Origin: a virus
Virus record (IMG/VR): IMGVR_UViG_3300012936_000084
Span: 1 to 32,356 of that record
DNA length: 32,356 nt
Direction: 5' to 3' (one strand)
This document shows positions 1,519 through 27,400 of this stretch, one piece after another. The position numbers and the translations under genes are program-made. Each line of letters begins with the position of its first letter. Position 1 is the stretch's first letter. A model generated the notes under the pieces. The model made no database searches, had not been told where the DNA came from, and saw nothing but the letters and a program-made list of their open reading frames with translations.

Positions 1519-3425
1519 TAATAATTACCAAAAGGATTTGATTCTGTAAAATCAACTATGAGATCTGCCTCAGTTTCAATAGAATCATTGTCAGTGTATT
1601 TATCATATGTATCATCATTTGTATAGAAATCAATTGCATAAGATGCAGAGGATTCTGCGCCAACAATTAGTTCACCATTTGTAAATGTTCCGTCAACATA
1701 AGAAATTTTAAGAGTTTTTGATGAAGAAATCCATTCCTTTACTCTTGCTGTAGTTCCTGAACTAGACCCTGTAATAAGTTCATTGAATATAAATGTTCCA
1801 ATACCTGCAATTAGTGGTGGATTTTCAATAGTAACGGTTGGATTTTCTGTATAACCAATACCAGGATTAACAATTCTTACTGCAGTAACAATATTTCCAG
1901 AAGAAACTTCTACTCTTGCTGTTGCTCTCACACCACTCTTAATTGAATCCTCATTGGCAATAGTAACTGTTGGAACACTTTGATATCCACTACCAGGATC
2001 AGTAATCGTGAGAGATGTAACAGTTCCTCCGGCACTGACGGTTGCAGTTGCACTCGCAGCAATTCCTGCTATTGATTGAATTGAATTAACCATTAATCGG
2101 AAATTGTCATTTCCACTACCACCTCTTGCTTCATAAAAATCAGCAGATGGATTAGAACTTACTTCAAAGTCATGACCACCATAAACAGTTGTAAATCCAG
2201 TTACACTACCAGATCCATCAACAGAATCGATACGGATTATTGCTTCCGTTCCACCCATACTTACATTGTTTGGAACTAATCTAATAGTTTCATTTGCTTG
2301 ATATCCACTACCAGCATTCGCAGATGTCATCAAATCAATAACACCAGATCTTGTTCCAGAGGTGCTAATAGCAACCACTGGTGCTGAAAGATACTGAGTG
2401 CCAGGATTAGTAATGGTAAGAGATGTAATAGTTCCACTAGCACCAACTGTTGCTGTTGCTGTAGCAGCTTGAGATGGATGAGCAACAGTGATTATAGGTG
2501 CTACTGGATATCCAGATCCACCATCATCTACAGATATAGAAACAACACCTTTTTCAGTGGTTTCGATAGATGCAGTTGCTGCTGCTCCAACACCACCACC
2601 ACTATAAATTGTTATTCCAGGAGCAGCAGTATAACCAAATCCAGCGTTAGTTAATAAAATTTCTTTTATTGAGTGAACACCAGCAACTGATGTTGTTATA
2701 GCAACTGCTGTTGCAGTACCACCAGAAACTGGAGAATCATCAAACTGAATAATTGGTGTCGATGTGTAACCACTTCCATCATTATTTAAAAATACTTCTC
2801 TTATATAACCATCTTGTATTAGTGAAGATGCAGAAGCAGTTTCACCAATTCCAACTAATTGTAATGTAGTAATATACCCCTCATCTTGAATTTGAGTGTC
2901 AATTTCATCAATAGATGTATCGATAACTTCATCTTCATACTCAAAGAGTTCACACTTAAGTTGATAAACGTAGTTTTTACCTAACTGATAGAAAGGATCT
3001 TCATGTTCTACAAACTTAACTTCAAATAATCTTTGCCCCAATGGAAAATAAATTAAATCTCCTTCTCTAGGTCTATTAGAAACAATAATCTCATCATCAT
3101 CTTCCCCTTCAAGGAACATTGCAATAAAATCTTCAAATCTTTCTTTAGATATAGTTATTGTCAACTCATCTTTGAGTGACATTCCGAATTTAGTTAAAAT
3201 ATCTCCAGCACCAGAATAACCTTCATACGTATTAATATATGCTTCAATAGTATAATTATCATCAAATTTAGAAGTTTGAACTTCATTGAGAATAGTATCT
3301 CTATTGACAATCTTTCTTGGGATGTATGTGACATCAATCCCATACATCCTAAGTTGCTCATTTATTAGTTCTTGAACAAGTCTTTGTTCAGACTGAGAAC
3401 CTTGTAGAAAGAATGGATTTAACAT
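1518..3425 (-). CDS. gp14: neck protein with repeat insertion (T4 gp14-like)
   Basis: Residues 1-190 carry the neck-protein signature of marine T4-like phages: FFLQGSQSEQRLVQELINEQ, then YGIDVTYIPRKIVN and FGMSLKDELTITISKERF. The C-terminus ADLIVDFTESNPFGNY is also typical. gp14 works with gp13 to close the head portal and join it to the tail. T4 gp14 has 256 residues and this protein has 635. The difference is mainly an inserted array at about residues 205-560 with seven or eight units centred on GSGY..xP or close variants (GSGYTSTP, GFGYTAAP, GSGYPVAP, GTQYLSAP, GSGYQANE, GSGYQSVP, GIGYTENP). Each unit is followed by a short beta-strand-like run. The array is likely exposed on the neck surface, as a whisker-like or host- or particle-binding decoration; this is inference. 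Start and stop join the neighbouring genes as TAATG overlaps. Confidence 0.9.
   Translation of the reverse strand: MLNPFFLQGSQSEQRLVQELINEQLRMYGIDVTYIPRKIVNRDTILNEVQTSKFDDNYTIEAYINTYEGYSGAGDILTKFGMSLKDELTITISKERFEDFIAMFLEGEDDDEIIVSNRPREGDLIYFPLGQRLFEVKFVEHEDPFYQLGKNYVYQLKCELFEYEDEVIDTSIDEIDTQIQDEGYITTLQLVGIGETASASSLIQDGYIREVFLNNDGSGYTSTPIIQFDDSPVSGGTATAVAITTSVAGVHSIKEILLTNAGFGYTAAPGITIYSGGGVGAAATASIETTEKGVVSISVDDGGSGYPVAPIITVAHPSQAATATATVGASGTITSLTITNPGTQYLSAPVVAISTSGTRSGVIDLMTSANAGSGYQANETIRLVPNNVSMGGTEAIIRIDSVDGSGSVTGFTTVYGGHDFEVSSNPSADFYEARGGSGNDNFRLMVNSIQSIAGIAASATATVSAGGTVTSLTITDPGSGYQSVPTVTIANEDSIKSGVRATARVEVSSGNIVTAVRIVNPGIGYTENPTVTIENPPLIAGIGTFIFNELITGSSSGTTARVKEWISSSKTLKISYVDGTFTNGELIVGAESSASYAIDFYTNDDTYDKYTDNDSIETEADLIVDFTESNPFGNY
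1810..2815 (-). repeat. GSGY repeat array inside gp14
   Basis: Within gp14 the reading frame encodes seven or eight diverged units of roughly 35-60 residues, each with a core of the form (N/D)xGxGYxxxPxVxI. Two units are still recognisable as DNA repeats: about 60 bases starting at 1993 and at 2401 agree at roughly 80 percent of positions by eye. They encode TITDPGSGYQSVP-type and TITNPGTQYLSAP-type units. The same unit type occurs in the gp7-like, gp8 and DUF4815 proteins of this window. Confidence 0.8.
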
Positions 3426-4267
3426 TATCCAATAAGATCGAGAGGTGGTAATTCATTTTCAAGCATCATATTTTGCTTGAGTTGGTCTAATTCTCTTTGA
3501 GCATCTTCATAAATTTCTCTACCGTTTAATTCAATACCACCTGGCAATTTAACTCCTCTAAACTTAATTAGATTTTGTCCCCACTGCCTTTTAATGAGTG
3601 CTGTTAAATATTTTTTAACAAAACTATCATTATAAACCTGAGTAAATGAATCTGGATCAAGTGCCCTATAACAATCAATAACTAAAAAGTCTCCAGCATT
3701 CTGTGCATTCCAATCAATATCAAGATACATTCTATCTTGACGCTTATTAAATCTAATTTGCTTATCAGTTGTTAATAGGAAATCAATATCTTCCAAATAA
3801 CTTTTGGTCATTGCATATTGCAACAACTCAACAGAATTAAAATAATATAGATCATTTAAGAATAATTGATATTTAATACTAAACATTCCTCCAGAAATGC
3901 TGCTAGTATCAAACTTAAATACTTTTTCAATTCCCACTACAGAATCGGGAACCTGAATAAAATTAGAATTTTCGTAAAAACTTGATGTAAATGTTCCAGA
4001 ACCACTATCTGTAGATGTTGCTGTAGTGGTTACAATACCAACACCTGTTGTTCCACTTGCCCTTCCTCTGTCAATATCTGCTTGTTTCAACTCATATTTG
4101 AGGAACATTCTTTCAACACCGTCAAAGTGGCGTTCATTGAAGTATTGAACGGCATCATCAACTAAATCATCGATCTGGTCATCATCAACGTTTATCTCCA
4201 ATACAGGGGCACCCAGACGCCTTAAACAGTAATCAATTAGTCCTTGACGTGTTGATGGTTTTGCCAT
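3425..4267 (-). CDS. gp13: neck protein / head completion (T4 gp13-like)
   Basis: This 280-residue protein compares with 309 for T4 gp13. The N-terminus AKPSTRQGLIDYCLRRLGAP followed by VLEINVDDDQIDDLVDDAVQYFNERHFDGVE is the characteristic gp13 opening in marine T4-like phages. Helical C-terminal segments include YLTALIKRQWGQNLIKFRGV and REIYEDAQRELDQLK. gp13 forms the head-proximal neck ring with gp14 and stabilises packaged DNA before tail attachment. A Gly/Ser/Thr-rich low-complexity stretch at about residues 70-97 sits between the first domain and the VPDSVVGIEKVF strand and is probably a surface loop. An AGAGG Shine-Dalgarno-like sequence precedes the ATG, which overlaps the stop of the upstream small gene as TAATG. 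The following gp14 begins in the same overlapping way, so gp13, gp14 and gp15 form a coupled cassette. Confidence 0.92.
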   Translation of the reverse strand: MAKPSTRQGLIDYCLRRLGAPVLEINVDDDQIDDLVDDAVQYFNERHFDGVERMFLKYELKQADIDRGRASGTTGVGIVTTTATSTDSGSGTFTSSFYENSNFIQVPDSVVGIEKVFKFDTSSISGGMFSIKYQLFLNDLYYFNSVELLQYAMTKSYLEDIDFLLTTDKQIRFNKRQDRMYLDIDWNAQNAGDFLVIDCYRALDPDSFTQVYNDSFVKKYLTALIKRQWGQNLIKFRGVKLPGGIELNGREIYEDAQRELDQLKQNMMLENELPPLDLIG

Positions 4268-4512
4268 TATTCTTCAACCTCTGAGTTCTGATAATCATCT
4301 GCGCCTGTTAAAGGTTTTGATTTAGATTTAATAGTTACTGGTTCTGGTTTTTTTAGTTCCAGAAGTTGTGCCAGTAACTTATTTTTTTCATCTTCAAACT
4401 CTTTTGTTAATGTTTGAATTTTTGCCTCCAACAAAACGTTTTGATTTGTTAGTGCTGCTAATTTTTTATTATAAAGAGTCACTAACACATTAATATCTAC
4501 TTCACTATTCAT
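4267..4512 (-). CDS. small coiled-coil protein, unknown function
   Basis: This 81-residue protein has a likely coiled coil over residues 9-53 (leucine/isoleucine spacing in LVTLYNKKLAALTNQNVLLE and what follows, with alternating Lys/Glu). A basic and proline-containing linker (KKPEPVTIKSKSKP) and an acidic C-terminal tail (NSEVEE) follow. I do not recognise a named family. Its place between a tail-fibre-like gene and gp13, and its joining to both (5-base gap upstream, TAATG overlap downstream), suggest a late protein, perhaps a small trimeric fibre or whisker component or an assembly factor. That role is a guess from context. A GGAGG sequence lies upstream within the end of the previous gene. 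Confidence 0.7.
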   Translation of the reverse strand: MNSEVDINVLVTLYNKKLAALTNQNVLLEAKIQTLTKEFEDEKNKLLAQLLELKKPEPVTIKSKSKPLTGADDYQNSEVEE

Positions 4513-4517
4513 AATTT

Positions 4518-6155
4518 TTAGAAGGTTCCTCCGTCAATCGTTGAGGTCCAAGTTGGTTTACTAGTGTATGTAGTAGCAACATTAGTTGGGTTTACACTGG
4601 CACTAGTGCCATCATCAACAATATCATTTGTCGTGTCAAAAGTTCCCTGAACTCCAATCAAAGTAACACTATTTGATGAAGATGTTGTAGTTTTAACCAT
4701 ACCATACGCTGCACTATTATTTTGCTGCGTAATTTGCGATCCAGCTGCTAAACTTGCATTACCACTTAAGGTAAGAACAATTTCAGTAACAGCAGTTAAA
4801 ATTTGTGTTGATGTTACTGTAGTATCAGCATCACCTGGTTGATTTGTGGATCTTTGAAGACCAGTGCTATCAAAATATACGATACCATTAGTATCATAAT
4901 CACCAGATTGATAGTAGATACCTTTAATATCTAAGAAACCTTTAGTTCCTGCAACAACACTATTACTAATAGTTGCATCAGGAATGTAGGTTAACCTTCT
5001 ACTATTATCAGCATGTGTTCCATGATTCAATGCGCCAGCAGAACTATCAGCGATAGAACTGTCATCCATACCAAAGAAACCAGTCTTGTTATTTCCAACT
5101 CCACTGCTTGTATTATAATCAAATGAAACACCACGGTCTGTATTAGTATCAAATCCGTGAGTTACTGTGATTTGTGTAGTTGTAGAAAGACCAGCACTTG
5201 TTGTTCCACTAAAAGTAACAACTTTTGCCGCAATATCAATTGCAGAAACTGTCGCAATACCTGATGCGTTAATACTAGTTGCTGTAAGAGTATCGCCAGT
5301 ATTAATGCCAACAACAGAATCTAATCTTGCTGTGCTTACACCAGATGCAACATCAGTGATAACCGTTCTTACACTGGTTACATCACCAAGATTCATGATA
5401 GATTCATTAACAGTAACCGAACTTGAGTTTACTGTTGTAGATGTTCCATCAACCTGGAGATCACCTTTAATAATTACCGTTCCCTCATTACTAAAACCAT
5501 CGGGGAAAGGATCAATATAAAGAGTATTTCCACCACCAGATCTTGTTGAAATTACATTAGATGAAATACCAACATTATCAATAACAAACTGACTACCAGT
5601 TGGAATAATATATTGTTGTGCAACATTCCATACCCAAGGGGCACCAGTTACTTGAACAGCATCTGAACCATTTTCATCATATTCAATCTTAGCATCTTTA
5701 CTATCACCAAATACTAAGAACTGATCATCTGGAATTACAACCTCACCAGAACCATTAGTTCTTAATACAATGTCTCCATCTGTATCATTAGATGATATTG
5801 TATTACCATCTAACGTTAGATTGTCTACACTCCATTGATCAACTCTCGGTAAACGAGAAATTGCACCAGCACCACCAGGATTTCCTCCATTTTCCGTTAA
5901 TAGAACGGGAACAAAACCGTTTGCCTGTGTTGTTGGGTTATCTTGCCCTGCAACTAATCCAGGTGCAATACTTAAAAGATCTGTGTAATATCTACCACCA
6001 ATTAACTGTGGGTTTTGGGAGTTATCTCCAGCAAATACCCTTCCACCCCTATTGCCATGTGTTCCATTACCAATTGTAAGTGCTAACTCACCATAATTTA
6101 GAGTACTGGGTGCAGAAGTACCAGTAGATCTTTTGACTCTAATGATACTCGCCAT
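4518..6155 (-). CDS. tail-fibre-like virion protein
   Basis: This is a 545-residue, beta-rich protein. The N-terminus MASIIRVKRSTGTSAPSTLNYGELA is a recurrent opening of fibre-type proteins in marine T4-like phages. At about residues 225-262 it has the fibre motif VIIKGDLQVDGTSTTVNSSSV with VNESIMNLGD, seen in many phage tail fibres. Residues of about 320-390 (HGFDTNTDRGVSFDYN, KTGFFGMDDSS, RRLTYIPDA) form another conserved segment. The C-terminus is Ser/Thr/Val-rich low complexity ending in STIDGGTF. It is probably a structural fibre or fibre-connecting protein on the baseplate or neck. No receptor-binding tip or chaperone domain is recognisable. The ATG overlaps the preceding gene's stop (TAATG) and has a good GGAGG nine bases upstream. 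The product class is likely, while the exact appendage is unknown. Confidence 0.72.
   Translation of the reverse strand: MASIIRVKRSTGTSAPSTLNYGELALTIGNGTHGNRGGRVFAGDNSQNPQLIGGRYYTDLLSIAPGLVAGQDNPTTQANGFVPVLLTENGGNPGGAGAISRLPRVDQWSVDNLTLDGNTISSNDTDGDIVLRTNGSGEVVIPDDQFLVFGDSKDAKIEYDENGSDAVQVTGAPWVWNVAQQYIIPTGSQFVIDNVGISSNVISTRSGGGNTLYIDPFPDGFSNEGTVIIKGDLQVDGTSTTVNSSSVTVNESIMNLGDVTSVRTVITDVASGVSTARLDSVVGINTGDTLTATSINASGIATVSAIDIAAKVVTFSGTTSAGLSTTTQITVTHGFDTNTDRGVSFDYNTSSGVGNNKTGFFGMDDSSIADSSAGALNHGTHADNSRRLTYIPDATISNSVVAGTKGFLDIKGIYYQSGDYDTNGIVYFDSTGLQRSTNQPGDADTTVTSTQILTAVTEIVLTLSGNASLAAGSQITQQNNSAAYGMVKTTTSSSNSVTLIGVQGTFDTTNDIVDDGTSASVNPTNVATTYTSKPTWTSTIDGGTF
4528..4532 (-). promoter_or_regulatory. 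possible Shine-Dalgarno for the 81-residue gene
   Basis: On the minus strand this reads GGAGG, lying 15 bases before the ATG at 4512. It is formed by the Gly-Gly codons of the IDGGTF C-terminus of the upstream fibre-like gene. The spacing is longer than ideal, so it may be weak. Confidence 0.4.
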
Positions 6156-6793: not shown

Positions 6794-9700
6794 GCTAAGG
6801 CAATCACTCTTACATCTTTAAATTTATTTGTGTATGCCTCATTCGTTCCACTCATTACAATCTTAATTGAAAATCCAACAAATGAATCTAGATTATCTGC
6901 AGAAAACTGATATTCTGAATATTCATTTTCTCTATTTGGATTTACTTCCACATCAGGCAAACCATCGTTTAATGATGTATTAATGACAGTATCACCATAA
7001 CCATCACCATCAGAGTCAGTTAAATTATTATATCCAGGGAATAATTCATATGTTTGTTCAACTTCACTAGAATCTGCTCTGATAAGTTTATATAGAACTC
7101 TAAAATCACTAGAAGAATCTCTGTATGATGTAAGTAATACTTTTAGAGATGATGCTGGTCTTTGTAAATTGATAGTATTTGAGATGTAAATAGAAGCATG
7201 TGGATCATTTGAAGTTTGATTAGATCTCGAATCTATTGCATAATCACCAACAGGATTATTTAACCTGTTTCTAGCAAATACAAATGTTGCTGCTTCAGAG
7301 AGATCTACAACAGGTGAAAGAGAATTATTGTTAGACTCCATCCTAATTCCAAGTGTTAATGATTTATTCTTAGGAAGAGATGTTAATCTTTCAGTTTCAT
7401 TAATATTTGAACAAACAATTCTAGGTGTAGAAAGTTCATTTACTCTATTGATTGCGACTGATTCAAATCCTTGATCTTGGAAAGAAACTTCGTTTCCACC
7501 TGCACTAGTTCCAGAAACTGTTCTCAATGTTGCCGAAACACTTGTATTTTGTGGATTGATAACATTGAAATATGGAATTATTTCATTAAATTGAATATTT
7601 TGAGATGCCTTACAACCGTTACCACCTAGTGAACTCTCACTGTTAAAGTTCAACATTGTAGTTCCACTATTTTTACCTGAAGGTCTCTCAAATTCCAAAT
7701 GATATGTATCAATATCCCTATTACCAACTAAAATCTGATTAGTTGGCATATTATGTTTTCTATTGATTCTTGTTAATGAAACTCCATTTAATTCGTATTT
7801 ACGAATCAAATCTCCAACTGAATGATTTCTAACAATTGATTCATTTTCACCACGAGCAACAATAGTTAAAGAACCAACATTAACAGCATTATATGAAATA
7901 ATTTCGTCATTAATTATAACATAACCAGGATTTGTTCCACTAACAGCAGATCCCTCAAAAGTTGTAAATGATGCAGTATTCGCAACTGAAACATTTGTAT
8001 TTGTAGAAATAATCGCAGCATTAATGGTAGTAGATGTAGTATTTGGTTCAATATCACTCAAATTAACTACATTACTATTGGAGTGCATTCCATGATTGTA
8101 ATGTGATACTTCAAAAACATTTCCAGAGAATAGTTGATCGGGAACTGTAGTTGCTCCTCTAACCACTGTTCCTGCCATAGAAACATTAGTGTTCCCACTA
8201 AGATATGAAATAGTATCTCCAGTATCGAATGTTTCACCTTCAACATTTGTGATGTATAGTGTGTCAATATTTGGAACCGATGTAACGGAGATCAACGCAC
8301 CATTTCCAGTTCCTGCAACAGAACTAGTTGTAACTCCAAGTAAATCACCTTGCCTATAACCATTTCCAGTTGATGCCAAGGAGACGCTATTTACACCATT
8401 ACCAACAACTGTAATATCTGCCGTTGCACCAGAACCACTACCTGAAATAGTATACAATGGAACATTACTGAAAGTTCCATTTGAATAACCCACACCAACA
8501 TTGGATGTAGTAACTACACCAATATTTCCACCTACAAATTCAATAATACCTGTATTGTCTCCTTCAGAAACTTTAACACCAGGAACTAAAATACTACCAA
8601 GTGCTGCAGAAGTTGTCATTCCAACATTTAATTTGCGTGGCAATGTTTTAATTGGATTATCAACTAAAGATGGTATATTAGAATCTGCTGATGTAAATGT
8701 GCTACCAACAGAAAGTTTTGGATTGCAGAAATAAGCAATACCAGTTTGGGAAGTAAATTGTGCCTTATAAAGTTTAAATTTCAAATCTTCAGAAATTACT
8801 GGCGACCAAACAGAACCATTTTGTGGTTTGAATAGATTACCACCAGTATATTGGTTTGAATAAATTATCTGATCAGCTGCAGGATAATTTTGTGTTGCTA
8901 CAGTTGGTTGATTCGTTTCACCAACCCAAACTTCATAATCATCAGAAGTTGGGCATGATAGTGTTAATGAGTACTGTCTATTTGGTTGCAAATATAGTGG
9001 TGATGGTAAATCTACAAGAGTTTCGGTGGATCCATCCGTAGATACTGTTATATCTGATGGTAATAATCCAACTCTAGCAAAATTTTGAACCACTTTATTT
9101 TTTGGTGTTCCACCAATATCAGTTTCTCTTATCTCTAAGAAAATCTTTTCGGTTGTGTCTTTTACTTTAAAGAAAAGACCTATTCTGGTTAAGAAACCAC
9201 CAACATTATCAGTTCTAAATGTTTGAGATAGAGGATCTCTTCTTACAGCATTTTCTGGAAGTGCTGCAGGAGGTTTTCTAATTGAAACACTCTCGGTATA
9301 AACCGAGGGGTCAACAACTCCATTATCATGGAATGTTTCTTGTGTAAATCTAACTGAAGAAGCAGATGAGTTGGTAGAACTACTAGTCAGTTTAAGGGTT
9401 TTTGACCCAGATTTAAATGATACTGAAGGTGCTGGATTTGTGTGTGGATTTCTAATGAATAAACATCCATTCAAATCGCCAACAACATCAGTCGTTAATG
9501 ATTGTGCAGAAACAGTTGCTTGAGCAGAACTAGTTTCTCCCACTAAAGTCATATTATTGGAAACATATCCATAAAATCTACCATCTCCATCATCTGCAAG
9601 TGACATAATATCAATACAGATTAATGGAGCAGATGATGAATATACTGTTGCAATATCTAATGTTGGTGAATATGGATTTTTAGTATATACTTCCGATGGA

Positions 9701-12700
9701 TTCAAATATGGACCTGATTTATGATTTGCATTTGCTAATCTAAACGCGGTTACCTTTTTCCCACCTTCATACCCATAAACAATTTCTCCAGCTTGGAATG
9801 AACCACTGGACATTGATACTTGTAACAGTTTTGGAATTGTATCAATGTTTGAACTTCCACCAAAGAATGAATAATAATTTGTTGATGGTTGTAAACCAGA
9901 AGCTTCAAATGCAATATTTCTAGATCTTAATTTTCTACTAGTTTCTGAACTAGTTATTAAGTTATTAATATATGAACCAGTCCAATTACTTTGTGTTCTT
10001 AAAATCCTACCTGCTTGAACATTAAGAGTTCTTGCCCAAGTATCGGATGAAGGTGTTAATTTTACAACACCATTATAGTTTTCAACACCAAAAGGATTAA
10101 CCTTTTGTGATTTGGTTGCAAATGATTGTTGAATATCAGACCAAACAACTGATGAATAGTTTAAGGTAACTAGATCACCTGTTTTTTTGATATTTGGATC
10201 ATTTAAAGTAAAATCTGATGAAAAATCTAGTATACTGGTATCTGCAGTTGTTGCTGGTGAGATTCTAGATTTTAATGAACTAAACACTAAATCAGATCTC
10301 AATTCGCTCTTTTGAGTATCAATTGTAGAATTTGCATCTGGATCGTTGGTATTAATAAAACTAGTTCCTCTGAAATTATCAACAAAGAAACCAGATTTAA
10401 ACCTATCAATACCATCAATATCTCTGACTTGAAGAGTTTTTGTATTTAATTCAAGTAAAGTTAATGATGTTAATTCCTCTACATTTTCAATACGATCTTC
10501 GAGTTCACGAAGATTTTGCATAGTATATCTCTTATTATTTGAAAGAGTAATTTTTACATCGTCTGGATTATAAAGATATGCTGGTAATTGAATTGTCGCC
10601 AAATCCATCGATTCATCAATAGAAGTTGGTTCTACTGGATTCAATGATCCAACACCTTTAATTAATGAAATATTTCCATCTCTTGTGAGACAAATTTTAT
10701 CAATTCTTGGTAAGTAATATGAGTAACCTACAAGTGATGTTTCATTTGGTGCAATAACAAATTCACTATTGGATGTAAGTGTGGAGAAGTTTCTACTAGA
10801 AAATACAAATGGTGAAGAAGTAGTTGAAGTAAATGGTGCAACTCTTGGTCTAAAATCTAAGATATCGGAAGATCTTACATTGCCAGCAAGAATTGGAATA
10901 TCTTTTTCGTATCTTTGACCATCATAACTACCTACCGTATAAACATCTCCAGAATCACTAGTAGGAACTTTATAGCAATCATAGATTACTAACAATCTTT
11001 TAGATGGAATGTAAAAATCAGATTTTCTTACAATTCTAGAATAATCATAATATTGTTGCTTTTGTCCTTTATCTAAAGTATAATCATTTGTCTTATCTGT
11101 ATATGAACCGTTAGTAATAGTAAGAATAGAAGTTCTTATGTTAGATTCTTCAAAAACGACCGATTCATTTGGAGAGAATCTATTTGCATTCAAATAAACA
11201 AATTCAACCTGTGTTGAAGATGATCTGGTAACAATTTGTCCAACAGCACCACTACCTTGACCTATAATTTTTTCACCCAATATTGATGCTGTATCGAGAC
11301 TTAAACCAGATCCGAAGGATAAACTATCTAAAACTACACTACCATCATCAATTGATTCATAAACAGCAATAACTTTATTAACATCAGGAACATTTAAAGA
11401 AATTTCCTTATCCTCTACACGAAGACCGTAAAAATTATTCTGTGTTAATCCAGAACTTACTGTAAGAACACTACTTGCACTTCTCGCAACTTCTAATTTT
11501 TCACTTCTAATATAATTTTTCTTCTTAGAAATGACCGCATTTTTCTTGGCAGTAACATTTACAAAAATATTACTTTGATTAGCGATTAATCCACTCAGAG
11601 TGACACTTTCACCATCAGAAGAAACTACTACCTGATCTGATGAAAGATCTGCAGATATACCATTATCATAGATAACCGAATATCGATCTAATGCATATGG
11701 CATAAAGAAAGAACTAGTAATGCCAATATCAGTACGATTAAGTGTTATGGAACCATTATTATCTGATGCTTGCGATGTAGCTTGTTTTCTTACTATGAAA
11801 TTAGATCCACTAAGAGATACATTAGAAACATTTTCAGCGTTTAATTTAGTATATAACTTTGCTCTATCAGAATCAGCAATATCGGGAGTTAGAACTTTGA
11901 AATTATAATTACCACTCACAATAGCACTTGCAGAAATTCCAGTAACATTGTGTGTTGTTGCTAAGGTTACTGTTAAACCATTAGTTGCAATACCAACAAT
12001 TCTATTAATATTAGGTACTGTATTACCCACAACAGAATATTTAACTAAAGAATCTGTTTTAACACCTACAAAATTTCTACCCAGACAAGTTGCAATTCCA
12101 GTTGTTGAGTCAACTGTCAATACATCATTAATACTAAAATTTGGTAAAACATTCTCTCTTAAAACAGAGTCACCATGGAATGCTGTTTGAAGATTGGTAT
12201 TTGTAGTTGTTTGGAAAACTGATTTGATATCTTGAATTCCAAATACCTTTACTCTTACAACAGATCTACTTAAAGTTGAGTTCCCATTTAAAATTACTTG
12301 CTCACCCTGAACAAAAGTTCCAGATGTTTGCTCTAATGTAAATTCTGAACCAGAACGAGTAACGACAAATCCAGTTGCACCACTATTAACACCTTTTACA
12401 TGCCCACCAACAGGAAGTTGACTTACTGTTGCACCCGAACTTAATGTGAGAATTGTATATGTTTGTATATCCCAAAGATATAGATCCCAAACATTCTCAG
12501 TATCGGTGTCATCTGCATCAGCAAGATCAAATGAATATGCTCTTGCAGTTCCCACCTTCAATCCAGTTCCAGCATTTGCTGTTGCTGGATTTCTTCTTCG
12601 ATTGAATAACTGAATAACATGGTTATTATCAAGGTTAAGACCTAATGCTGGTGTTCCAGAAACATTGTTTAACCTTATTCTATTACCCATTTCAAATGGT

Positions 12701-13867: not shown

Positions 13868-15427
13868 TTAGAATTCCAGTACTATTTTGATATCTTCTTT
13901 TTGTCTTGGGTTTCTTGAGACACGAGGTCTATTATCAAGATAGATAATTTGCCCCGATCCTTTATTTATCTCAGGAAGAGAAATGCCATTTGTAAATTGA
14001 GTTGCTAGATTTACATTTTTAGTAGACGTAATTGCTGTTGTAATTCCAGTAAAGTTTTGATCAATAGTTCCACTAAAACTATTTTCTGAGGTTACAGTTC
14101 CACCATCTTTAGTAAAGTCAACTTTTGTTGCTTCAGATATAATAGTTTTGGAATCTTTCTGATCATAAGATCCTGTATTAAAATACAAACTTCTATCTTG
14201 GAAATACTTTATAACTTGAGTTTCAGTGTCATAAGAAGCAAGATAACCAGTTGCTGTTCCCACACCAGTAACAGTTTGAAATAGTCTATTTCCTGGAATT
14301 GCATCTTCTGGATTAGAAACAGATGTTAGTTTAAATCCACCTAAATTTGAGAATTGACTCTCTTGAAAGATGGAAGATGCTGTTCCTATTCTACTTGGAT
14401 TCTTTACGATTCCAATTTGTGCAAATCTGGTATCAAGAGGAAAATCTTTAGTTGATGAATCAAAACGAGCATAAACTAAAACACGATCTGTTCCCAACTC
14501 TTCATATACATTATATCCATGTCCTCTTGATGGAGGAATGATTGGAATTAGGTGTGCAAATCCAGTAGCACCGGAGTTAATCGTTGATAAATCAACTCTT
14601 CCATACGTATATCCATTTCCACCAGCAGAAACAGTTGCTGAAGTAATTTTACCGCCAACAACATTTACAACTGCCTTTCCACCAACACCATCACCAAGAA
14701 TATCTAACTCCGCATCAGTGGTATTGTATCCAGAACCTTCATTTTCTACATAGATCTTTTTAATCTGATTTTCATTAATTGTGGAATCACCATTGTCTCT
14801 TACAGATACAATTTGTTGATCTGTTGTTGTTTCCCAATCGCTAGGAACTGGAATATATTCAATAGAGTCAAACTTAATAATATCTGCTGGAGATACGGTA
14901 AACAAATATTTCCAGACATATCCATCACCACTTTCTCCTGCTCTTGATGGTTCTAAATCAACAAAAGTTGGTTCATCCTGTGAAAAATTACCAGTTGTAT
15001 TTGTTGCAGAAGATCCATTGTCAATGCAAATATAAACACGAAAATCACTATTAATTACATAGTAATTTGCATCATATAATCTAGCAGAATTTGTTTGCGG
15101 AGATGGATTATCTAATCCATAATCATGCCTATACATCTCATAGACAGTTCCTTGCTTCCAATCAACCCTCCTAACCAATCTTCTAATATCATTTTTGGTA
15201 ATTCTCTTACCAAAAATCATAGTATCTTTCACATGACTTAGGTAGTTTTTATTATCTACAGGAGATGGTGTATTAGTATCCCAAGTTGTAGATCTTCCAA
15301 ATCCAACATTTGCCGAAGGATTTACAAGACTCAAAAAAACGTAGTAAGAATTATTTGGATCACTAACGGAATCCACAAAATTCTCGGCGTTTAAAATTCT
15401 AAATTGATCTGTGACAATCGCAGCCAT
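13868..15427 (-). CDS. gp8: baseplate wedge subunit (T4 gp8-like)
   Basis: This is a 519-residue counterpart of T4 gp8 (334 residues), a dimeric wedge protein. Alignable landmarks, by memory of T4 gp8, are AAIVTDQFRILNAENFVDSV at the start, FGRSTTWD (T4 FGRSEPW), GDGYVWKYLF (T4 GDGYVWEYLF), EYIPVP (T4 EYIVVP) and the end IIYLDNRPRV...KEDIKIVLEF (T4 MIYMENRPPI...EEINILFTF). RRVDWKQGTVYEMYRHDYG is typical of marine relatives. The extra length includes a region at about residues 222-310 carrying GSGYNTTDAELDI and GGNGYTYGRVDL, the same GSGY repeat type as in gp7 and gp14. A TATAAATA late-promoter box lies about 20 bases before the ATG, giving a very short leader with no clear Shine-Dalgarno. Confidence 0.95.
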   Translation of the reverse strand: MAAIVTDQFRILNAENFVDSVSDPNNSYYVFLSLVNPSANVGFGRSTTWDTNTPSPVDNKNYLSHVKDTMIFGKRITKNDIRRLVRRVDWKQGTVYEMYRHDYGLDNPSPQTNSARLYDANYYVINSDFRVYICIDNGSSATNTTGNFSQDEPTFVDLEPSRAGESGDGYVWKYLFTVSPADIIKFDSIEYIPVPSDWETTTDQQIVSVRDNGDSTINENQIKKIYVENEGSGYNTTDAELDILGDGVGGKAVVNVVGGKITSATVSAGGNGYTYGRVDLSTINSGATGFAHLIPIIPPSRGHGYNVYEELGTDRVLVYARFDSSTKDFPLDTRFAQIGIVKNPSRIGTASSIFQESQFSNLGGFKLTSVSNPEDAIPGNRLFQTVTGVGTATGYLASYDTETQVIKYFQDRSLYFNTGSYDQKDSKTIISEATKVDFTKDGGTVTSENSFSGTIDQNFTGITTAITSTKNVNLATQFTNGISLPEINKGSGQIIYLDNRPRVSRNPRQKEDIKIVLEF

Positions 15428-15458: not shown

Positions 15459-18400
15459 TTAACCAAGATCTTTTCTCAGAGATCCATTATCTCTAAGACC
15501 AAAGTCTCTTCTTTGGATAGTTGGGTATGTAGTTAATCCAGAATTAACAGTTAAACCAGAAACACCAACACCTATTGCATTCGTTCCTCGTTTAAATCCA
15601 GCAAGTCTACCCCAAGAGAATGATCCACATGGGTTTGATCTAGATCCCTCCGTAGATCCTATAGTAACAATGTTAGTTGTTGATAGGATATTCGCAGTTA
15701 TAACACCAGTTAAGTTTTGAACGTGGAAAGAATGCACATAGTATATATTATCAGCAAATGTGGTTCCGATACCAACAATTGCATTATCATCACCATCAAT
15801 TGATGTTATTCCGTTTCCAACTGTAGTATTTGAAACTATAATTGGATATCCCGTCTGTAATGTATCAATATCTGTTCCTGCATCAAACAGAAGATCAAAT
15901 TTAACTGCAAGCGAATTACCACCAGTTCCAACACTAGTTGTAATACCAGTGACAATTCCACTATATCCAGAAACAAACTTAATGCCAGTAATTAATTCTT
16001 CAGTTACAGATGGTAATGCTGTGATTAAAGATGGAGTTGCTGTGGATGTATATCCAGATCCAGGATTGGTTATTGAAATGGAACTAATTGTTCCTGCTGC
16101 AGAAACTACAGTGTTCGCAGTAGCACGAACCTGGTCTTGATATAAACCAAAGTCAAATGTTCTTGTAAGTTCTTTGGTATTTGCAACAGATTTATTAAGT
16201 TCAACAGATTCAGTGCCAATTCCAATAACTGTAAAAGTTTTATCAACAATCTCTACAGATCCATTAAATATTCTATCTAAAGAATGACCAATTCGAATTG
16301 ATGCTGTGCTGATACCTGTTATGAGTGTAGAACCAATTCCAACTGTTCCAACTACATTTTCAATCTCTGGTTTGAAAATATCAGTTCCAATACCACCAAT
16401 TGGCGATGCAACAATAACTGTAACAGTTGACCCAGAATCATATCCACTACCACCTTCAATAACGTCGATAGAAGAAATTGTTCCTGCAGCAGATACAACC
16501 GCTGTTAATGCACAAGAAACACGGTTTTGATTGCCTGGTATAAGTAATCCAGAAACTTGAGGGATATCTATAGATGATTCATTTTCCTCGTAGTTGAATA
16601 ATTGAGCAGCATCAACAAATATTTCAGTATCTTGAGAACCAAAATCTTTAATTACTTTAGCAGTTGGGAAAACCATGCCCTCAATAGAATCTCTAGTTTT
16701 TGGTTGAGCATTATCACTGATAAACAAATCTCTCTTTTGCTTACTCCAATCGATTGGTTTGAAGTTATTTTCATCAATACCATCACCAAGATAAATTCCA
16801 GTTTCTATTGTGTCTGCAGATACAATAGCAGAAACAACTCTACTATCCTGAGAAATAGTTCCACTTATAGCATCATTTTTTAATACTCGAACTTCATCAC
16901 CAGGTTTGATTGTTTCATTAACATCAACTTCAATACTATCTTGATTTCTAGTTCCTCTATAGAAGAACACATCTATTTCATCTTCAAACTTGGGTGCTTC
17001 AATAAATTCAAATGTTGTTCCTCCTTCAAAAGTATATGATTTTCCTGGTTCTTGCATAACACCATTGACATAAATTAGCAAGATCGAATCAAAATCAATA
17101 AGTGATGATGTTACATCTGAATTATTCTTCTCAAAACTCAATAATTGTTGATTCTTGAATAGTGGGAATCTAGTTCTAATGCCATTTTGTCTTGTTTTAT
17201 TACTATCAATATAATCAAATTCACCTAATTGCCAAGATCCAAATGAATCATTAAACACTTCAGTTACTGTAAATTCCAACTCACTAATTGGTGATGATAA
17301 TCCAGCAGCTGTAACTAATCCAACGGGTCTAAACACATCACCCTTTCTAAAGGAATAACCAGGATTAGATATCTCGTATCTTTGAATTTCAAAGTATGAA
17401 GTTCCAACACCAACAGATGATGGACCCATCTCAAGTGTCATTGATAAACCAATACCAGTTGCTGTTGTTGTGCCAATACCAAGTCTTGATATTCCTATTA
17501 CTGATAGATTTTCATATGAAGGACTATCAACAGTTACGAGTGGATTAACATATCCACTGCCACCATCAACAATATTAAATGCTAGGGTTCCACCAGCACC
17601 CACAGTCGCCGTAATATTTGCATCCTTTCCTGCTCCCCCACCAGGTCCAATATTAACTGTGATTGTATTTGAGGTAACAGCGGTAATTGCTGTTTGAATA
17701 CCTGCAACAGGATCCGTTGATCTTGGATATGGATGTTCTGTCTTGTAACCATCTTTAGAGCAGGTGAATACAAGAGATCCCGTATCAATACCAACAGTAT
17801 TTGATACAGTCAATCCATGATTTGGAATTGTTAATACTAGAACACCTGATTCTGAAGTATATCTTGCGTTTGTTGCTGTATGATCAGTATTTGTATCATC
17901 TGTAATTGAATTAATTCCAGCACTAACAAATTTGTGTTCATATGCCAGATCTGTAATTGCAACACCAACTGTTCCTCTATATCCAGATCCAAATGTTAAC
18001 TGTGGATAGTATTCGCGAACAGTTCCGCCAGTTTCATATGTATGTGGAATTGTACTAGTTCCAACATTAACTTCGAATGTCTTGGCAGAAGAAATACCTG
18101 AAATTGGATATTCAAATCCTTGTGTTCCATCGGGGAATATTGTTGTAGTTACACCAGCATGTGGTGCAGCACAAGAGAATTCTAATCCTAAGAGTGATAC
18201 AAATCCACCAGATCCACATAGATTGTGTGGTGAGGCAGTTGTAATCTCAAGAACACCAGTTGATTCATTATAGCGAGAAGTGCTAATGTTAATTTGAGTG
18301 GAACTGAAGGTTGAAACGCCAAGTAATCCAGAAATTGATTTTCCAGCACCAATAGTTGGTTTTACTTTAGCACCAACAGGTAATGCATATCCAAGTCCAC

Positions 18401-21400
18401 CAGTAGATGCCACAGAAATTACGATACCACCTCTTGGAATTTGATTCTGATTGACATCCTTTTCAGAAATAATAATATTACTTGTATTATTCTGTGTGAT
18501 TCCAGTAAATGTAACACTAGAAATTCCAGTTGCTAAATCAGAACCAAAGGAATAGTTATTACCAGAATTATTTGGAGTATCTGGTGTTTGGAAGATATCA
18601 TTGATGAATACTAAATTACTTCCTGCTTCTAGACCTAAAGTATTTTCACCCTCTTTCTGTATTGTAAATGTTCTACCAATACCATTAAAACTTAGAGAGA
18701 TATCATCATATATCACATTTCCAGTATAATTTTGCCTTAAATAAACTCTACCATTGAAAGTTGATTTAGGAAGTGATAATGCACTCGCATTTAATCTATC
18801 ATTATTGCCTTTACCATCAGGTGCTTGAGTAAAGTGAATCTTATTACCAACAATGTTATATGCACCTTTAAATATCCTTGCCTCAGAACCATCAGTATGA
18901 GTGGTTGCAGAGGTTCCAACAAACCCTCTTGATACATTGATTAGTGGAACTGTTCCAATACCACTAATTGGACCTGCTGTTGTAGTTCCAAGTCCTACGT
19001 TTTGAATTTCTAAGAATTCATTATCTAGTTTGAGGATATCTCTTGGTTTGATTGACGATATTCCAGATAGTGATAAGAATGAAACTGCAGCTCCAATATT
19101 ACCACCACCATTATTTTCCAAATTAAATGATAGTGGAGTATATGCTAGTGGATACTGTGTTACGCCGTCAATCGTAATTAATGCCTTTTCAAGTTTCTTC
19201 TTCATCTCTAACTTGTGGCGGTTTCCAGATCCACTGTCAGTAAAAGTAAATCCAATTCCGCTACCACCAGCAGTTCCTGATAACTTGAAAGTATCTTTTG
19301 TAAGTCTAATTGCATAGACTCTTGATGGCATAATATCTGTAGTAATACCTGTTGAGAAAGTTTCTCTAATTGTCGATGCTGTAGAAACATTCGACATAGT
19401 TACTGACCAATTTGCATTATCAACATAGTAACTTCTATCATCACCACCAACAATTGTTACAGATGATGTTATAGAATTAATGCCGATAGCAATAACACTT
19501 CCTAATGCAGTATTATCTCCAGAGAAAATACCTGATCCAACTTCTATAATAGAAGTGTTAGCAATACCAGTAATTACTGATGCACCCGCACTTACAACAT
19601 CTCCTTGGAAATATGAATTGAAAGTTTGAATACCAGTAATTGTTGTATTTGCTGCAATACCATCACCAAATAGTAAAGCACCAGATATCAAACCAGTTGA
19701 GTTTGCGATACCTGTAATTGTAGAAAAACCAGTTTCTGGGATATCACCAGTAAATAAAGTTCCGTTTACAATAGTAGTTCCAATACCAACAGGTGTTGCT
19801 GCAATTCCAATTAGAGTTGATGCAGGAGTATAGATCAATTCCTCACCAGTTTCAAAGAAGTGATCATTAATACTGAACACACCAGTTGATTTGTTTAATG
19901 TTGTGGTATTTCCTGGATCAAAAGTTTTTTCATAAATTGGAATCGACTTGTAATTTAGATCAAAATCAGTTTTATCCTTACCAAATAGATTAATAGATCC
20001 GTAGAAAGAATTTTCTATCTTTTCAATTACAGACCCTACTTGGAAGTTTGGTGGAATATTAAATTCATCAATATCGGTATAGATGTGTTGATTGAATGAT
20101 TGTAACGTTACAGTATCACTTGCAAATTCTGCATCTGGGTGGAATTTAACAATAACATTACTTCCATCCATTTCGGATGAGAATGTTCCAATGCCATTGG
20201 AAGTATTTACATTAATGAATGGTGATGCTTGAATAGATGTTCTCGTTTGGTCTGCAATAACCATTAAGTTTTGAATTGCTGTAGTTTCACCAACACCAAT
20301 TTTTATAATTGATTTTTGACTAAACTGAATAACACTATCAAATTCAAATACAGTAGCAATACCAACTGTTTCTTTTAACTGGGAATCAAACTTTGCTGTT
20401 CTTTCTGTTCCTGGAATTTGCCCAGAAACCAAGTAACGATGCGTTCCAACACCAGCAGCAGTAGTTCCTATACCAACTGTTCTTGTTTTAACAACTAAAT
20501 TGTTATTAGTATCATTTTCAAATTGTAATCTGATAACACCACCAGAAACATTTAATCCAAATGTACCAATATTTGCTCCAGAGAATGAACTGGATGGTAA
20601 AGTATCATAATAGAACTCAGATATATGATTATCTTGTCCGTCATGATGAGCAACTACTTCAAAGTAGTTCATTCTATTAGTATCAGTATTCAGAACTTGT
20701 GCAAAAGTATATGTTGTATCAAACTTATCTGATAACGCTTCAAATACATCTGTTGTAAATCCAACTAAACCACTATTATCAGCTGGTCCTAAAACATTAG
20801 TTCTTCCATCTATTCTAGCAAATCCAAATTCAGTAAATCCTGAACCAACATTTGCTGGTGTAAACGATTCTCTATAAACTTTAAGATTGTAATTAAAATT
20901 ATTTGGATCTACAGGATCAAATCTTAAAGTTGGATCTCCACTAGCAGCAAAATCACCTGAGAAATCACCAAGTTTTGTATCAGTGAACAAATCGGTTTTA
21001 TTTAATGTATATGTGTTGTCGTAATCATTTAGTATGATGACTTCACTAAGTTGAGAACTTGTTTTATCCTCATCAGTAACTTGAACTAAGAATTTAGAAT
21101 AAAAATCAGTAATTGGGTATTCAACTGCTTCTACAAAAGGATCTTGATTAAATTCTGCACTAGAGAATCTATTACTAATATCATCAATTTGAAGAACTCT
21201 ATTTGTTCTACATTCAATAAAATCAGCAAGTCTTCTATTTTTAAATATTAGAAATCTGGAGGAATTGCTAGTTGCCTCATAATCTTGAGTAAAATCAAAT
21301 TTGTTTATAGTATCAACTCTTCTTTCTCCAATGAAATCAAGAACAGTAGAAACGAAAGAATCAGTTATACCAATGGAAACAGAAGATTTCGATTCAATTT

Positions 21401-24400
21401 GAGTATCAGAAAAATTCAACATTCCAGTTGGGTGAACATGTCGTGAAACTTGTTCTTGAATTGTTAAAAATTCTTTTGGACTTTTAATGGTATATGAAAG
21501 ATTTTGATAGTAATTATTATCAGGAGTAACCTGCAAAGTATCACTTAATCTACCAACGTTATTTTTCCAACCAAAATTCTTCTTACTTGAGTAATCAACA
21601 GCAAATCTACCTTTGTAATCTTTGATGGATTGAATAGAACCAAAAATACCAGAATTAATTCCTTTAAGAACATCTCCAGGTTTTATCTTATAGTTACCAT
21701 CAACTTTTATTAGATCTTGTTCAACAACTGTAGTCACTAAATCTGTTTCAATACCATTAACAACTAAATTCTCACCAAGGAAGAATAAACCAGGAATGAT
21801 ATTTAATTTAAATACGGGTAAATTTTGCTTTTTAATAACTGAAGTGAAACTTGTTTGTATTGTTACCGGAACTCCCGCATCCGATGTAATGTCACCTATA
21901 TTGTATTTTAAAATTGCTGGATTTGAATTTGTATATTCGGTAACTTTAAAGAACTGATATCCATTATCTTCCGAATTAAATCCACTACCAGAAGATGTTA
22001 CATTACCTAAGGTATCAGTTTGTGTTTGTTTTTCCAATCCTTCAATAAAAACTTCATCACCAACTACAAACGGTGCAGTTGCAAATCCATCAATAGGTGG
22101 AGTGCTCAGTTCCAGTTCAACAATTCCACCACTATAACTCAAAATTCTTTCTACTTGAATACCATTACTGTTTAAAACTGGGAATATTTTATGTTCAACA
22201 GCATCCAATCCATTTGGTTCTGAAATTACATCAACGCCAACGATTGTATTTCCGGTAAAATCAGTTTCTAAAGCATATGATGAAGGATCAACTGCCTCTC
22301 TGGTATACATGTTGACAACAACAAGATTTGGAGCAGAAAGATAGTTTTTACCTCCATCCAGAACATTAACTGATTTTATAATATTTGTTCCAGTGAGTGT
22401 AATTAATTTTGATATATTTGCTTCTGGTCTTAAAGTTTTATCAGATGAATATTCAAAACCTTCATTAACAATTCTAAAATTATTTAATTTGCCAATAGAT
22501 TCTGTTTTTGCTCTAATAATTGCATTAGTTCCAAAACTAGTTGAAGTTCCAGTAGAAAGACCAGAAATTATTGGTAATCTAGAATAATTTGATCCTTTGG
22601 AGATATTGTTAATACCTGCAATAGGTCCAGATGCAGTTTTTGAATTTGTTGTATAAGAAAATTCAGCGGTATTTAATGAAGTATAGGAATTACTTTCTGG
22701 AAGTTTGGTTGGGGATATATTAAAAGTAGTTGACCCTACACCAAATACCTTATATGAATCATTATAGTTACTATCAACATATACAATTTCAGAATAGTCT
22801 ACAACATCAATATCGGGATCTACAGAGATTCCATTCTTTTCAAAAGAATAATATAGTTTAGTTGGAAGACTATCATTATAGGTAATAGTATATGTGGAGG
22901 TTATACCACTTACAGATGATTCAACAACAGAGAATACTGAAGTTGTTCCAGTGGAAACAAACTCATTACTTAAACCTCTGTCATAGAAGAATTTGAATTC
23001 ATAATCAACTAATGAAGAATCTTCAACATTAAATACAATATTATTATTTTTAAATACTTTAATTTGAGGATTTAATAGACTAATTTCCTGATCCGATCCA
23101 CCAGTGCTTCCAATACTTACTAAAACTGGTGGTGATGAGGTGGTATCATTATATGTTTTTGCTAAGTTAAAATTATCATCATCAATTCTGACCACATAAT
23201 ATCCACCTGTTTCTAAACCACTAGCAACTTCGATGGGTGAATCATAAAATATTTTTTGTCCTGTATTATATCCATGATTTTCTAAATTAATAGAATCAGT
23301 GGTAGGATTAACTTTATCCGAACCAAATCCAACACTATTAACTAAAACTGTTTTAAATGTAGAATTATATTTTACATCTACTGAGGATAGAGTTCCAATT
23401 CCAGTAGATTGATTTGGTTTTACTACAAGATCAATAACATCTCCATTTGATAAGTTATGTACGGTTGAAATCGATACTTGTGTTTTTATTTTTTGAACAT
23501 TCGCAGTTATTTCATTAAATTTAGTTGTGAATGCATATTCAAAACTATTATTGGTATTTACATTTGTTGCTGTAAAGAATAAACCGTTTGTGGATGTTGT
23601 CAATCCAACCTCAGTTACAATACCAATGAAATCTTTTCCTTTGTTTATGACATAAACAGTTTGATTTGCTATTGGGAATGTAAGATCAGATGGAGTATTT
23701 CTAGCATTTATGCCAACAAAACCAGTAGGAACACTTAAATCAACTGCTTGATTATTTTTGAACGGATGATTTGGTAAGAAAATTGATTGTGTAGGAACTG
23801 AAACATTTTTAAGAGTATTTCCTACATGATATCCGATAGAATAATCTGTTCCAGTTTGCAATCCAACACCGACTGATTCAAATGGATTGAAGTAAACACT
23901 ACTATTTTTTGTAGATTGAACATCTTCTTCAACACTTATTGGTATAATAAAATGATCGTTCTTTACAGTTACTAAGTCTGAATACGTGTGAGACATTCCA
24001 ATTGAACCTCTCTTAACACGTAATATATTTTCATCACTGAAAACATTTAAAACGCTCAGTGTTTCTGTTGAAATACCAATAGATGATCCCGAACCAATTA
24101 TTGATGGTATAGAAGCAACATATATGTCTGTTGTTACTCCTGTATTTGCTGTTATAAAATCAGTTAATCTCGTTGAGAATGAACTAACTCCAATTGTATG
24201 GGATCCTGTTAATTTATCAACGAACGTTGAAATTCCAGAAATTTGAACAATATCACCATCTAAAAGATTATGGGTATCATTTGTATAGATTTTAACAGTT
24301 TCTGAATCTTTCTTCTCTATTATCGAATTTTCATACTTTAAGTACTCTGTAGATAGATTATCAATTTTTCTACCAAAAACTTTAGATACCTCTGCAGCTG

Positions 24401-27400
24401 CACCACCGCCACCAGTTCCACTATTATTATAAACTAAAGAATTTCCAACTCTATAATTATCACCTGAATTTATAATCTCAAATGAATCAATTGATCCTTT
24501 TGATGCGGATTCTACGATTGTTGTCTGATCAACTGGGGAATTTGATTCAAATAGGAAGTCACTTCCAGAATGTGGTTTTGCAGTTCTATATGGGAAAGTA
24601 TTTCTAACTAATGTAGATTTATTAAAATCAAATGTTTGATCAAGAGATTCACTTGCAACTTGAGATCTATAAGTATCACCAACAAAATATGGGAATGCTG
24701 GATCTAACTTACCAGTACTGGCATTTGTAGATACACCAACAAAGTATGCATAAACACCATTTGGAAATTCTGGGGTTTTTGAATATCTACCATTATGAAT
24801 ATCCAAATCACCACTATCATCAAATTTAAAGTCTTCGATAAAATATCCACTTTCGAATACATTTAAATCTGGACGATTTTTAACACTAGAAGGTGATTCA
24901 ATATATCCAGATACCAAACGTCTCGTTACTGAGTTATCATCATTAGGATCAGAGAATGCATATGGTCCATAAATTGGATTTCCATCATTTGCCCATCCTA
25001 TAACTTTAGAATGCTCATCTTCAGTATTGGAATCTAAGAAAGATGTTCCATCCCTATCAGTCGAATATCCAACAACACCATACGACAAATCATCTTCATA
25101 ATTTACAAGTAATTCATCTGAGAATCTCTTCAAATTATTAACACGAAGATGTCTAACATTTGATTCTAATACAACATTTCTACCAGGTGGTTTGACGTTG
25201 ATAGTTGTATTAGTATCCTTATATCCAGTTCCTTTATTAATAATAATTATATCTTCAATTCTACCATTTTCAACAACTGCTCTAAGTTTTGCACCAACAC
25301 CATCTCCATTGATTTCTAAATCTGGAGCAGCATCATAAAACTTACCTTTATTTTGAACTTCAACTGCAATTATATGACCCCTCTTTACAATTGCTTTTAG
25401 TTGAGCACCTAAACCAGTTTTTGTAACAACTTTAGGATTTCTATGGAAATTTAGAATGTTAGATCCATAATCGGATCCTTCCTCATAAACATAAACGTCA
25501 ACAATTTCACCTCTAACTAAAGGAGTTGTAAAGATTGTGTTTGCAGCACCACTAGTTCCAGGTGCATATTCAGCATTAATGTTTACAACAATTGGAGGAT
25601 ATGAAAATATTTGATACCCTTCACCAGAAGTAGAACCAAAACTTACATAATTTTTTCTTTCATAATTTGTTCTTGCACCACCAACTGCTGTTGCAACTTG
25701 GAATTGAGAATCATTTATTTTTAATATTCTGTATTGTGTTGAACTAGAAAGACCAGAAACGGAACTAGTTTCAAAATTATAATCAACTAAATCACCATCA
25801 TTAAAACCATGATTTTTAAACTCAATAATATTTGTAATCGTAGAGATACCAACTGGTAAAACTCTCAGTTTTCTATTTTTATATCCAGAACCTGGATTTA
25901 TAACTTTAATCTCAGAAACAACTGTTTGCTCATCATATGTTCTGAATATATGAATACCACCTGTGTTTACTGTGGTAAAACCAACAGTATTAATTCCAGA
26001 ATTATAGTCACTAAGATTTTTAAACAAGTAAACAGATCTTGTATTAATAATCTTTGGATAGTATATACCACCACTTACAAGATAATCATTTTGATCTAGG
26101 TTAGATCCGTCAAAAGATCCAATACCAAGAACTGAATTGCCATTAGGATTATAAACGATCCTTTGTCCATCAACTAGATTGTGAAACTTTTCAAATGTTA
26201 ATGTATCGTTTACAACATCAATACCACCTGTAGCGGCAAGACCAACTCTAGATCCATTGAATGGTATATCCCTAAACTGTTTAGATACAACTGATTCTAA
26301 GAGAGCTCCAGTGCCATTACCACCTTCTAATGTTGTTGATAAAACACGATTAATACTGAAGTCTTGTGGATCAACAATAATCTCTTTTACAGATCCATCA
26401 ACTACTACTTGTGCTTTTGCAGTAGTTCCTGATGAAATAACAGGATCAGATACCACAATCTGTGGTGGATTTATGACGTCATAATTTGATCCACCATTCA
26501 ATACTTTAATATTTTCTAGAGGTCCATAGTAAACTCTATCATCAGACTTATAATTTTGTATTTCAACACCATTAATTAACAGACCAACTGGTCCTGCTTC
26601 TGTTTCTGTATTCGTTCCAGACTGTATATTTGGAACTAGTGGTAATTTAATTAGGGATTTTTTGGCTTTTAAATTTCTATTATGATGACTTTTTAACGTA
26701 AATGTGTGATCAGTACTAGTATCAAAAGAAGTATCTTGCAATCCAACATGCTGATCAGTGCCAATAAACGATCTTGCAAGGAACAATCTAATTCTATTAG
26801 TTTTAACTGGATTAGTATCCCTTATAACTTCAACATAGTATGTCCTACCATCTTCCAATCCAACAATATTATCACCATCGGTTTCATAAATTATCTCATC
26901 ACCCGTTATGAAGGGAACATCATTAGTAAATGATAATATTGAATACTTTCCTGTAGTTGGAACAAACCCTTGATATATGTTGTTTAGATTTGATGAAGAT
27001 GTTATAGTAATTGTTGCATTTGAAATATCTTTTGTTATATCATAATTTGGAAGAGAGTTTGATGCAACATATAGATTTGCATCCTTTTCATTATAAGTAT
27101 TTTGAACATTAGATAAGATTGTGGTTGATTCTAACTGAACACCAGAAGAAGATGCATAATCAAATTTCTTACGTATACTTAAATCTTGATTAGAAGAAAC
27201 TGTTATATTTTGATTTATCTTTACTTCTTTTCCAGAAACAGAATTTACTACAGCATCTGAAACTATAATATTTTCAGAATTTCTATCTAGTATATCAACA
27301 TTATCATCTTTTTTAAGACTAGACTTATCTGGAGTTTCAAATAAAGTTACTGTGTTATTTGAGAAACTTTCTATTTCATATCTAGTTCTTGTGTTGTAAA

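Follow-up and report, generated by a model that had tools for sequence, protein, structure and literature searches.

The GxGY unit in a T4-like structural gene cluster

The IMG/VR record IMGVR_UViG_3300012936_000084 is a 32 kb fragment of viral DNA whose 32,356 nucleotides, here called the window, contain a T4-like phage structural gene cluster with every gene on the minus strand. The cluster encodes gp6, a gp7-like protein of 4420 residues, gp8, a DUF4815/VrlC protein of 2358 residues, small proteins, gp13, gp14, gp15, and gp16, the last assigned by position. Its gene order, and S-SRM01, P-SSM2, and S-SM2 as its closest relatives, place the window with the Kyanoviridae, the T4-like cyanophage family. 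Four of the encoded proteins, gp14, the gp7-like protein, gp8, and the DUF4815 protein, carry copies of a unit of about 40 residues with the consensus GxITSVxIxNxGSGYxxxPTVTIxxxGTGAxAxAxV. We found that these units represent a single beta-rich module, homologous across four proteins that are otherwise unrelated. The unit period is mostly 34 to 45 residues, and the near-invariant positions are the glycine and the aromatic residue (tyrosine) of the turn.

The gp14 protein (window 1518-3425; this and all following window features lie on the minus strand) has 635 residues, versus 256 in T4. Its N-terminal core (amino acids [aa] 1 to 178, 2892-3425) is a homologue of T4 gp14 (the head closure protein; PF11649, E 1.4e-34; PDB 9mkb, E 1.8e-27) and is followed by six clear units, a weak one, and a C-terminal tail that is conserved. 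Units 1 to 4 (aa 203 to 370, 2316-2819; anchors at aa 217, 262, 303, and 342) form tandem GxGY beta repeats supported by profile matches and modelled by AlphaFold with a pLDDT of 87 to 95 in most blocks. Units 5 and 6 (aa 461 to 549, 1779-2045; anchors at aa 478 and 522) were identified by profile, profile-profile comparison, and AlphaFold. The insert between units 4 and 5 (aa 371 to 460, 2046-2315) starts with a weak seventh unit at aa 372 (GSGYQANETIRL, 6.7 bits), and in the alignment this insert is missing from the shorter gp14 proteins of P-SSM2, S-SRM01, S-SM2, and syn9. The C-terminal tail, ETEADLIVDFTESNPFGNY (1518-1619), is conserved across the Kyanoviridae and by eye resembles the end of T4 gp14, SFESSPFDNDFMD. 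A candidate half-unit at the T4 gp14 end, VVVNNRGKSFESSP, had been placed on the unit by the aligner; we rejected it, as it fits the conserved C-terminal tail better by eye and the T4 genome gave no unit match.

In the gp7-like protein, which compares with about 1032 residues for T4 gp7 (from coordinates), we identified about 13 candidate units, 9 of which score with a profile free of window sequence. All 13 have profile-profile support. The unit anchored at aa 744 (26409-26534) was also detected by the gp14 hidden Markov model (HMM) and by the window-free profile, which likewise detected those at aa 944 (25842-25934) and aa 1420 (24372-24509). Two clusters of three are additionally connected by same-protein matches: anchors aa 1082, 1126, and 1164 (25167-25499), the latter two also scoring with the window-free profile, and anchors aa 2043, 2088, and 2124 (22302-22634), where the first two are divergent and the third scores with the window-free profile. 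Toward the C terminus, the gp14 HMM and same-protein matches marked aa 3721 and, weakly, aa 3788 (17322-17624), while the gp14 HMM and the comparison of relatives marked aa 4091 (16362-16544) and aa 4221 (15972-16139).

The gp8 protein is a T4-type gp8 (PF09215, Pfam E 7.5e-13; Foldseek of the gp8 model against PDB 1n7z, E 1.7e-6) with 519 residues, compared with 334 in T4. Its two units (aa 212 to 290, 14558-14794; anchors at aa 231 and 270) are inserted between conserved gp8 segments, as seen by profile-profile comparison, AlphaFold, and alignment. The DUF4815 protein has no annotated T4 counterpart and contains two units (aa 1772 to 1868, 8263-8553; anchors at aa 1791 and 1834), recognized by family profile-profile comparison; in relatives the pair reads NVGxGYSNGTFxNVPLYTIxGxGSGATAxITV...SVSIAxTGNGYxxGDLLGITTS.

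An initial annotation of this DNA had described a GSGY repeat on these four virion proteins and had noted that their T4 counterparts are shorter. Both points are borne out, and the motif is present at every position that had been named, including those near residues 228 and 270 of gp8 and near 1796 and 1837 of the DUF4815 protein. The 13 candidates in the gp7-like protein agree with the "at least twelve" proposed there. For gp14, "seven or eight" units had been counted; six full units and one weak unit were recovered, but an eighth is not among them. The units extend over 1779-26534, slightly more than the 1810-25910 given originally.

Homology and predicted fold of the units

We built a unit HMM from the gp14 units across 84 relatives. 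This gp14-family HMM detected the gp7-like protein (E=3e-15, best domain 18.5 bits) and, weakly, gp8 (E=0.0017, best domain 10.4 bits) and did not reach the DUF4815 protein; shuffled gp7, gp8, and DUF4815 sequences (100 shuffles each) gave at most 4.5 bits per domain. Profile-profile comparison of family alignments reached up to 97.1% for gp14 with gp7, 97.5% for gp8 with gp7, 96.8% for gp8 with DUF4815, and 94.6% for gp14 with DUF4815, whereas among 144 comparisons that used control regions from these proteins the highest value was 13%. A profile made of bacterial units only, free of window sequence, found the window gp14 with E=9e-47 and the gp7-like protein with E=4e-12. Iterating the unit profile made it drift and lose length, so later work relied on the seed profile (U0). 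Cross-detection of units between the proteins thus lies above the controls. The initial annotation had suggested scanning with a gp14 profile and had named the failure of a one-protein profile above background as grounds for refutation. The gp14 profile does detect the gp7-like protein and, weakly, gp8, but the DUF4815 protein is linked only by family profiles; because all four proteins connect over the controls, the proposal of a shared module holds on balance.

AlphaFold modelling of gp14, run with a 40-sequence alignment, predicted strands A at 207-218, B at 225-228, and C at 239-247, then A at 250-260, B at 271-274, and C at 279-288, and continuing likewise, with strand C turning into the next strand A within a few residues. 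The gp8 model has the same strand order, at 224-229, 238-245, 251-257, and 260-268 (only gp14 and gp8 were compared, both as predicted models). In the model, each unit consists of three strands that form successive hairpins. The gp14 units are thus predicted with confidence, and the gp8 model shares their strand order. Together with the cross-detection, the fold prediction supports one beta-rich module in unrelated host proteins, as originally proposed.

In a Foldseek search with the gp14 model, the sole solved match was T4 gp14, for the N terminus, and many predicted cyanophage virion proteins resembled the repeat part. Sequence searches of the PDB with the unit profile and the repeats returned nothing significant. 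The only lead in the PDB was a weak two-unit stretch with the right spacing at residues 431-510 of the Dpo31/Dpo36 tailspike (PDB 28lx, 8ck1; E 0.06 to 0.2, the value of 0.06 having been obtained with an artificial two-unit query). If the match is genuine, this stretch would show the unit in a solved structure. We take the host of this tailspike to be Acinetobacter.

Distribution and comparison with known systems

Phage genomes were scanned in six frames with a profile from the window units, at E<=0.1 in one scan and E<=0.01 in the others. Among the complete genomes of cyanophage myoviruses examined, most held 17 to 32 copies (P-SSM2, 19; S-SRM01, 17; syn9, 32; S-SM2, 19; S-PM2, 17; P-SSM4, 28). 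Few matches were found in Syn5 (1), S-CBS2 (2), phiM12 (2), HTVC008M (3; classed in the Kyanoviridae but not a cyanophage), and Ps15 (5), and there were none in the whole genomes of T4, Lw1, KVP40, P-SSP7, and HTVC010P. The T4 gp14, gp8, and gp7 proteins of the Straboviridae are alike in their cores to those of the window, whereas the T4, Lw1, and KVP40 genomes are devoid of the unit. Units also occur in the hub/lysozyme (gp5) and tail fibres of P-SSM2, in the hub and long fibre of S-SRM01, in a 6076-residue virion protein of syn9, and, as a pair, in the tail sheath of Ps15 (NC_070951.1, 57907-58140).

When genomes of bacteria and archaea were scanned with an artificial two-unit query of canonical sequence, and the outcome was checked with window-only and bacteria-only profiles, relatives emerged in many phyla. 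A contractile-tail sheath protein of Nostoc has six canonical units (aa 264 to 484) upstream of the conserved sheath domains (L272:1750-3861), and a phage cement/minor capsid protein in an Acetobacter genome has two upstream of its cement domain (L257:2755-3546). Further units were located in a multicopper oxidase-like protein of Neobacillus, in a Tad protein, and in a gp8 from a gammaproteobacterial bin, where the gp8-bearing sequence is probably phage. With the centre genomes excluded, 1 of 177 random bacterial genomes from three phyla had a match at E<=1e-5. The confinement to neck and baseplate proteins implied by the initial annotation is therefore too narrow, since the module is also present in hub/lysozyme, fibre, tail sheath, and cement proteins and in nonphage bacterial and archaeal proteins.

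No Pfam or NCBIfam model matches the unit, and literature searches for the motif strings gave no match. The profiles of phrog_460, 2885, 701, 438, 5342, 708, 1922, and other PHROG families already include units; these families, however, treat whole proteins, and the unit that they share has no named family of its own. The window gp14 cross-matches about 20 PHROGs (head, connector, and tail), many via the repeat region alone, and PHROG annotation of Kyanoviridae structural proteins can therefore mislead.

Phage virion domains of the immunoglobulin (Ig)-like type (FN3/BIG2) offer the closest comparison. Both they and the units are small beta modules on many unrelated virion and bacterial surface proteins, located at insertion sites and with a patchy presence among relatives. 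Ig-like domains, however, are usually 80 to 100 residues long, whereas the units are about 40 residues, form tandem predicted hairpins, bear a GxGY...P signature, and have no Pfam model. There was no Ig-like, FN3, or BIG Pfam match at E<=1 for gp14, gp8, or the DUF4815 protein, or at E<=0.1 for seven canonical-unit proteins. With a period of mostly 34 to 45 residues, the units do not have the size of a beta-sandwich of 80 to 100 residues, and Foldseek gave no confident Ig match. By analogy, we infer that the units may work like promiscuous phage Ig-like domains while lacking the Pfam match and sandwich size of that group.

On balance, and with some reservation, we regard the unit as a tandem beta-hairpin module some 40 residues long, promiscuous and unnamed, for which Pfam and NCBIfam have no model. 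In this view it is spread across bacteria, archaea, and phages, has grown to dozens of copies in the Kyanoviridae, the abundant T4-like phages of the sea, and, alongside two or more other shared modules described below, explains part of their oversized neck and baseplate proteins. Most of the sequence of the giant gp7-like and DUF4815 proteins in abundant ocean phages lacks an explanation, and a named module would cover part of it. It would also remove false family links, give a testable rule for how virions gain extra surface, and relate the structural proteins of phages to repeats that occur here and there in many proteins of bacteria and archaea.

Proposed role, origin, and age of the module

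In the reading that we consider likely, the unit is a homologous, self-folding tandem repeat that was placed long ago as a promiscuous insertion module and serves mainly as an exposed structural extension. This reading draws on the homology, the fold prediction, conserved insertion sites, the spread of the module, variation in unit number, and the old exchange described below. Strand A (GxITSVxIxN) of each unit would lead through the GxGY loop to strand B (PTVTI), which is short, and on to strand C (ATATxV), which would turn tightly into the next strand A. The module may have entered gp14, gp7, gp8, DUF4815, hub, fibre, sheath, and cement proteins at sites that tolerate insertions, and may then have multiplied inside genes through tandem duplication and loss. 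The units are predicted to lengthen and rigidify exposed surface arms of the neck and baseplate, those of gp14 lying in the putative counterpart of the arm that contacts gp15 in T4, and they may offer a variable surface, possibly with weak adhesion too. The exposure of the units at the surface, their mechanical role, and whatever adhesion they may give are all deduced indirectly.

The units might instead form a receptor- or glycan-binding coat, giving the phage a single kind of weakly adhesive surface through which it would become concentrated on cells or particles. The initial annotation had likewise raised, as a possibility, that the units coat the particle with one type of binding or stabilising surface. 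The occurrence of the module in tail fibres and in a tailspike-like protein, and possibly in the solved Dpo31/Dpo36 tailspike, is consistent with this proposal, and, by analogy, phage Ig-like domains can mediate epithelial binding (PMC13370021). We nevertheless consider a binding coat rather unlikely as the main role: the near-invariant positions, turn glycines and an aromatic residue, look more like structural positions than a binding site, and units are also found in the neck, sheath, and cement proteins, remote from the receptor-binding tip.

Two observations weigh against the reading of one homologous, self-folding repeat. The mean column identity between units is 35%, and Foldseek returned no PDB entry that confidently matched the gp14 repeats. 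Because of this low pairwise similarity, the weakest units could have converged on a glycine-rich hairpin. Extended to every protein, such convergence would mean that each of them acquired its short, glycine-rich beta-hairpin repeats independently and that the profiles track composition and turn rules, not descent. The units are indeed short and degenerate, and some gp7 units were found only in context. Yet shuffled and reversed controls and the 144 control-region comparisons stay low, matches in random bacterial genomes are rare, and the aligned stretches cover one to two units with an identical strand order, so that we judge convergence very improbable compared with homology.

The sharing of the module between genes appears old. 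For all 23 of 23 window units, the score against the same protein in other phages (71 to 158, with matches of >=75% identity excluded) exceeded that against any unit of another protein (22 to 87). A tree of 178 units required 14 protein-label changes, versus 52 to 67 with shuffled labels, and DNA identity between window units was at most 77% over 43 nt. The gp8 units occupy one site in the Kyanoviridae, HTVC008M, Sinorhizobium phage phiM12, and Stenotrophomonas phage Ps15; in the alignment, T4 and Lw1 lack them. On the strength of the same-protein best matches, the unit tree, the low DNA identity, and the conserved gp8 site, transfer of units between genes is ancient, with no sign of recent gene-to-gene exchange. 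Unit number and spacing are still changing: gp14 has 2 to 6 units in relatives, and the two C-terminal gp7 units (anchors 4091 and 4221) are adjacent, about 90 residues apart, or both missing, depending on the relative. The movement by recombination among neck and baseplate proteins proposed initially thus stands as regards a shared homologous module, but the exchange is old and the module is not specific to those proteins; the suggested unit phylogeny showed units staying with their protein slot. Ongoing recombination that shuffles units between genes within a genome, to which the identical module in neighbouring genes, the differing unit numbers, and a different module present or absent in gp15 of various phages might point, is hard to reconcile with the same-protein matches, the tree, and the diverged DNA and is, in our view, highly doubtful.

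That different module (RG..G..A..H type) is common to gp15, the gp7-like protein, and the DUF4815 protein by profile-profile comparison (565-786, 18867-19094, 28257-28499, and 7792-8034). Its gp15 copy (aa 245 to 318, 565-786), also supported by comparison of relatives, is an insertion present in the window and S-SM2, and the same site is empty in P-SSM2, syn9, S-SRM01, phiM12, and T4. A third module (GE..SGA type) is likewise shared by profile-profile comparison between gp14 (aa 546 to 602, 1620-1790) and two places in DUF4815 (12232-12459 and 11107-11289). In T4, the gp14 arm (aa 178 to 256) contacts gp15 residues 203 to 245 (PMC12270204). The corresponding gp14 arm and gp15 C-terminal part of the window each hold inserted modules, and we judge this contact, with modules on both sides, to be the part most worth a structure.

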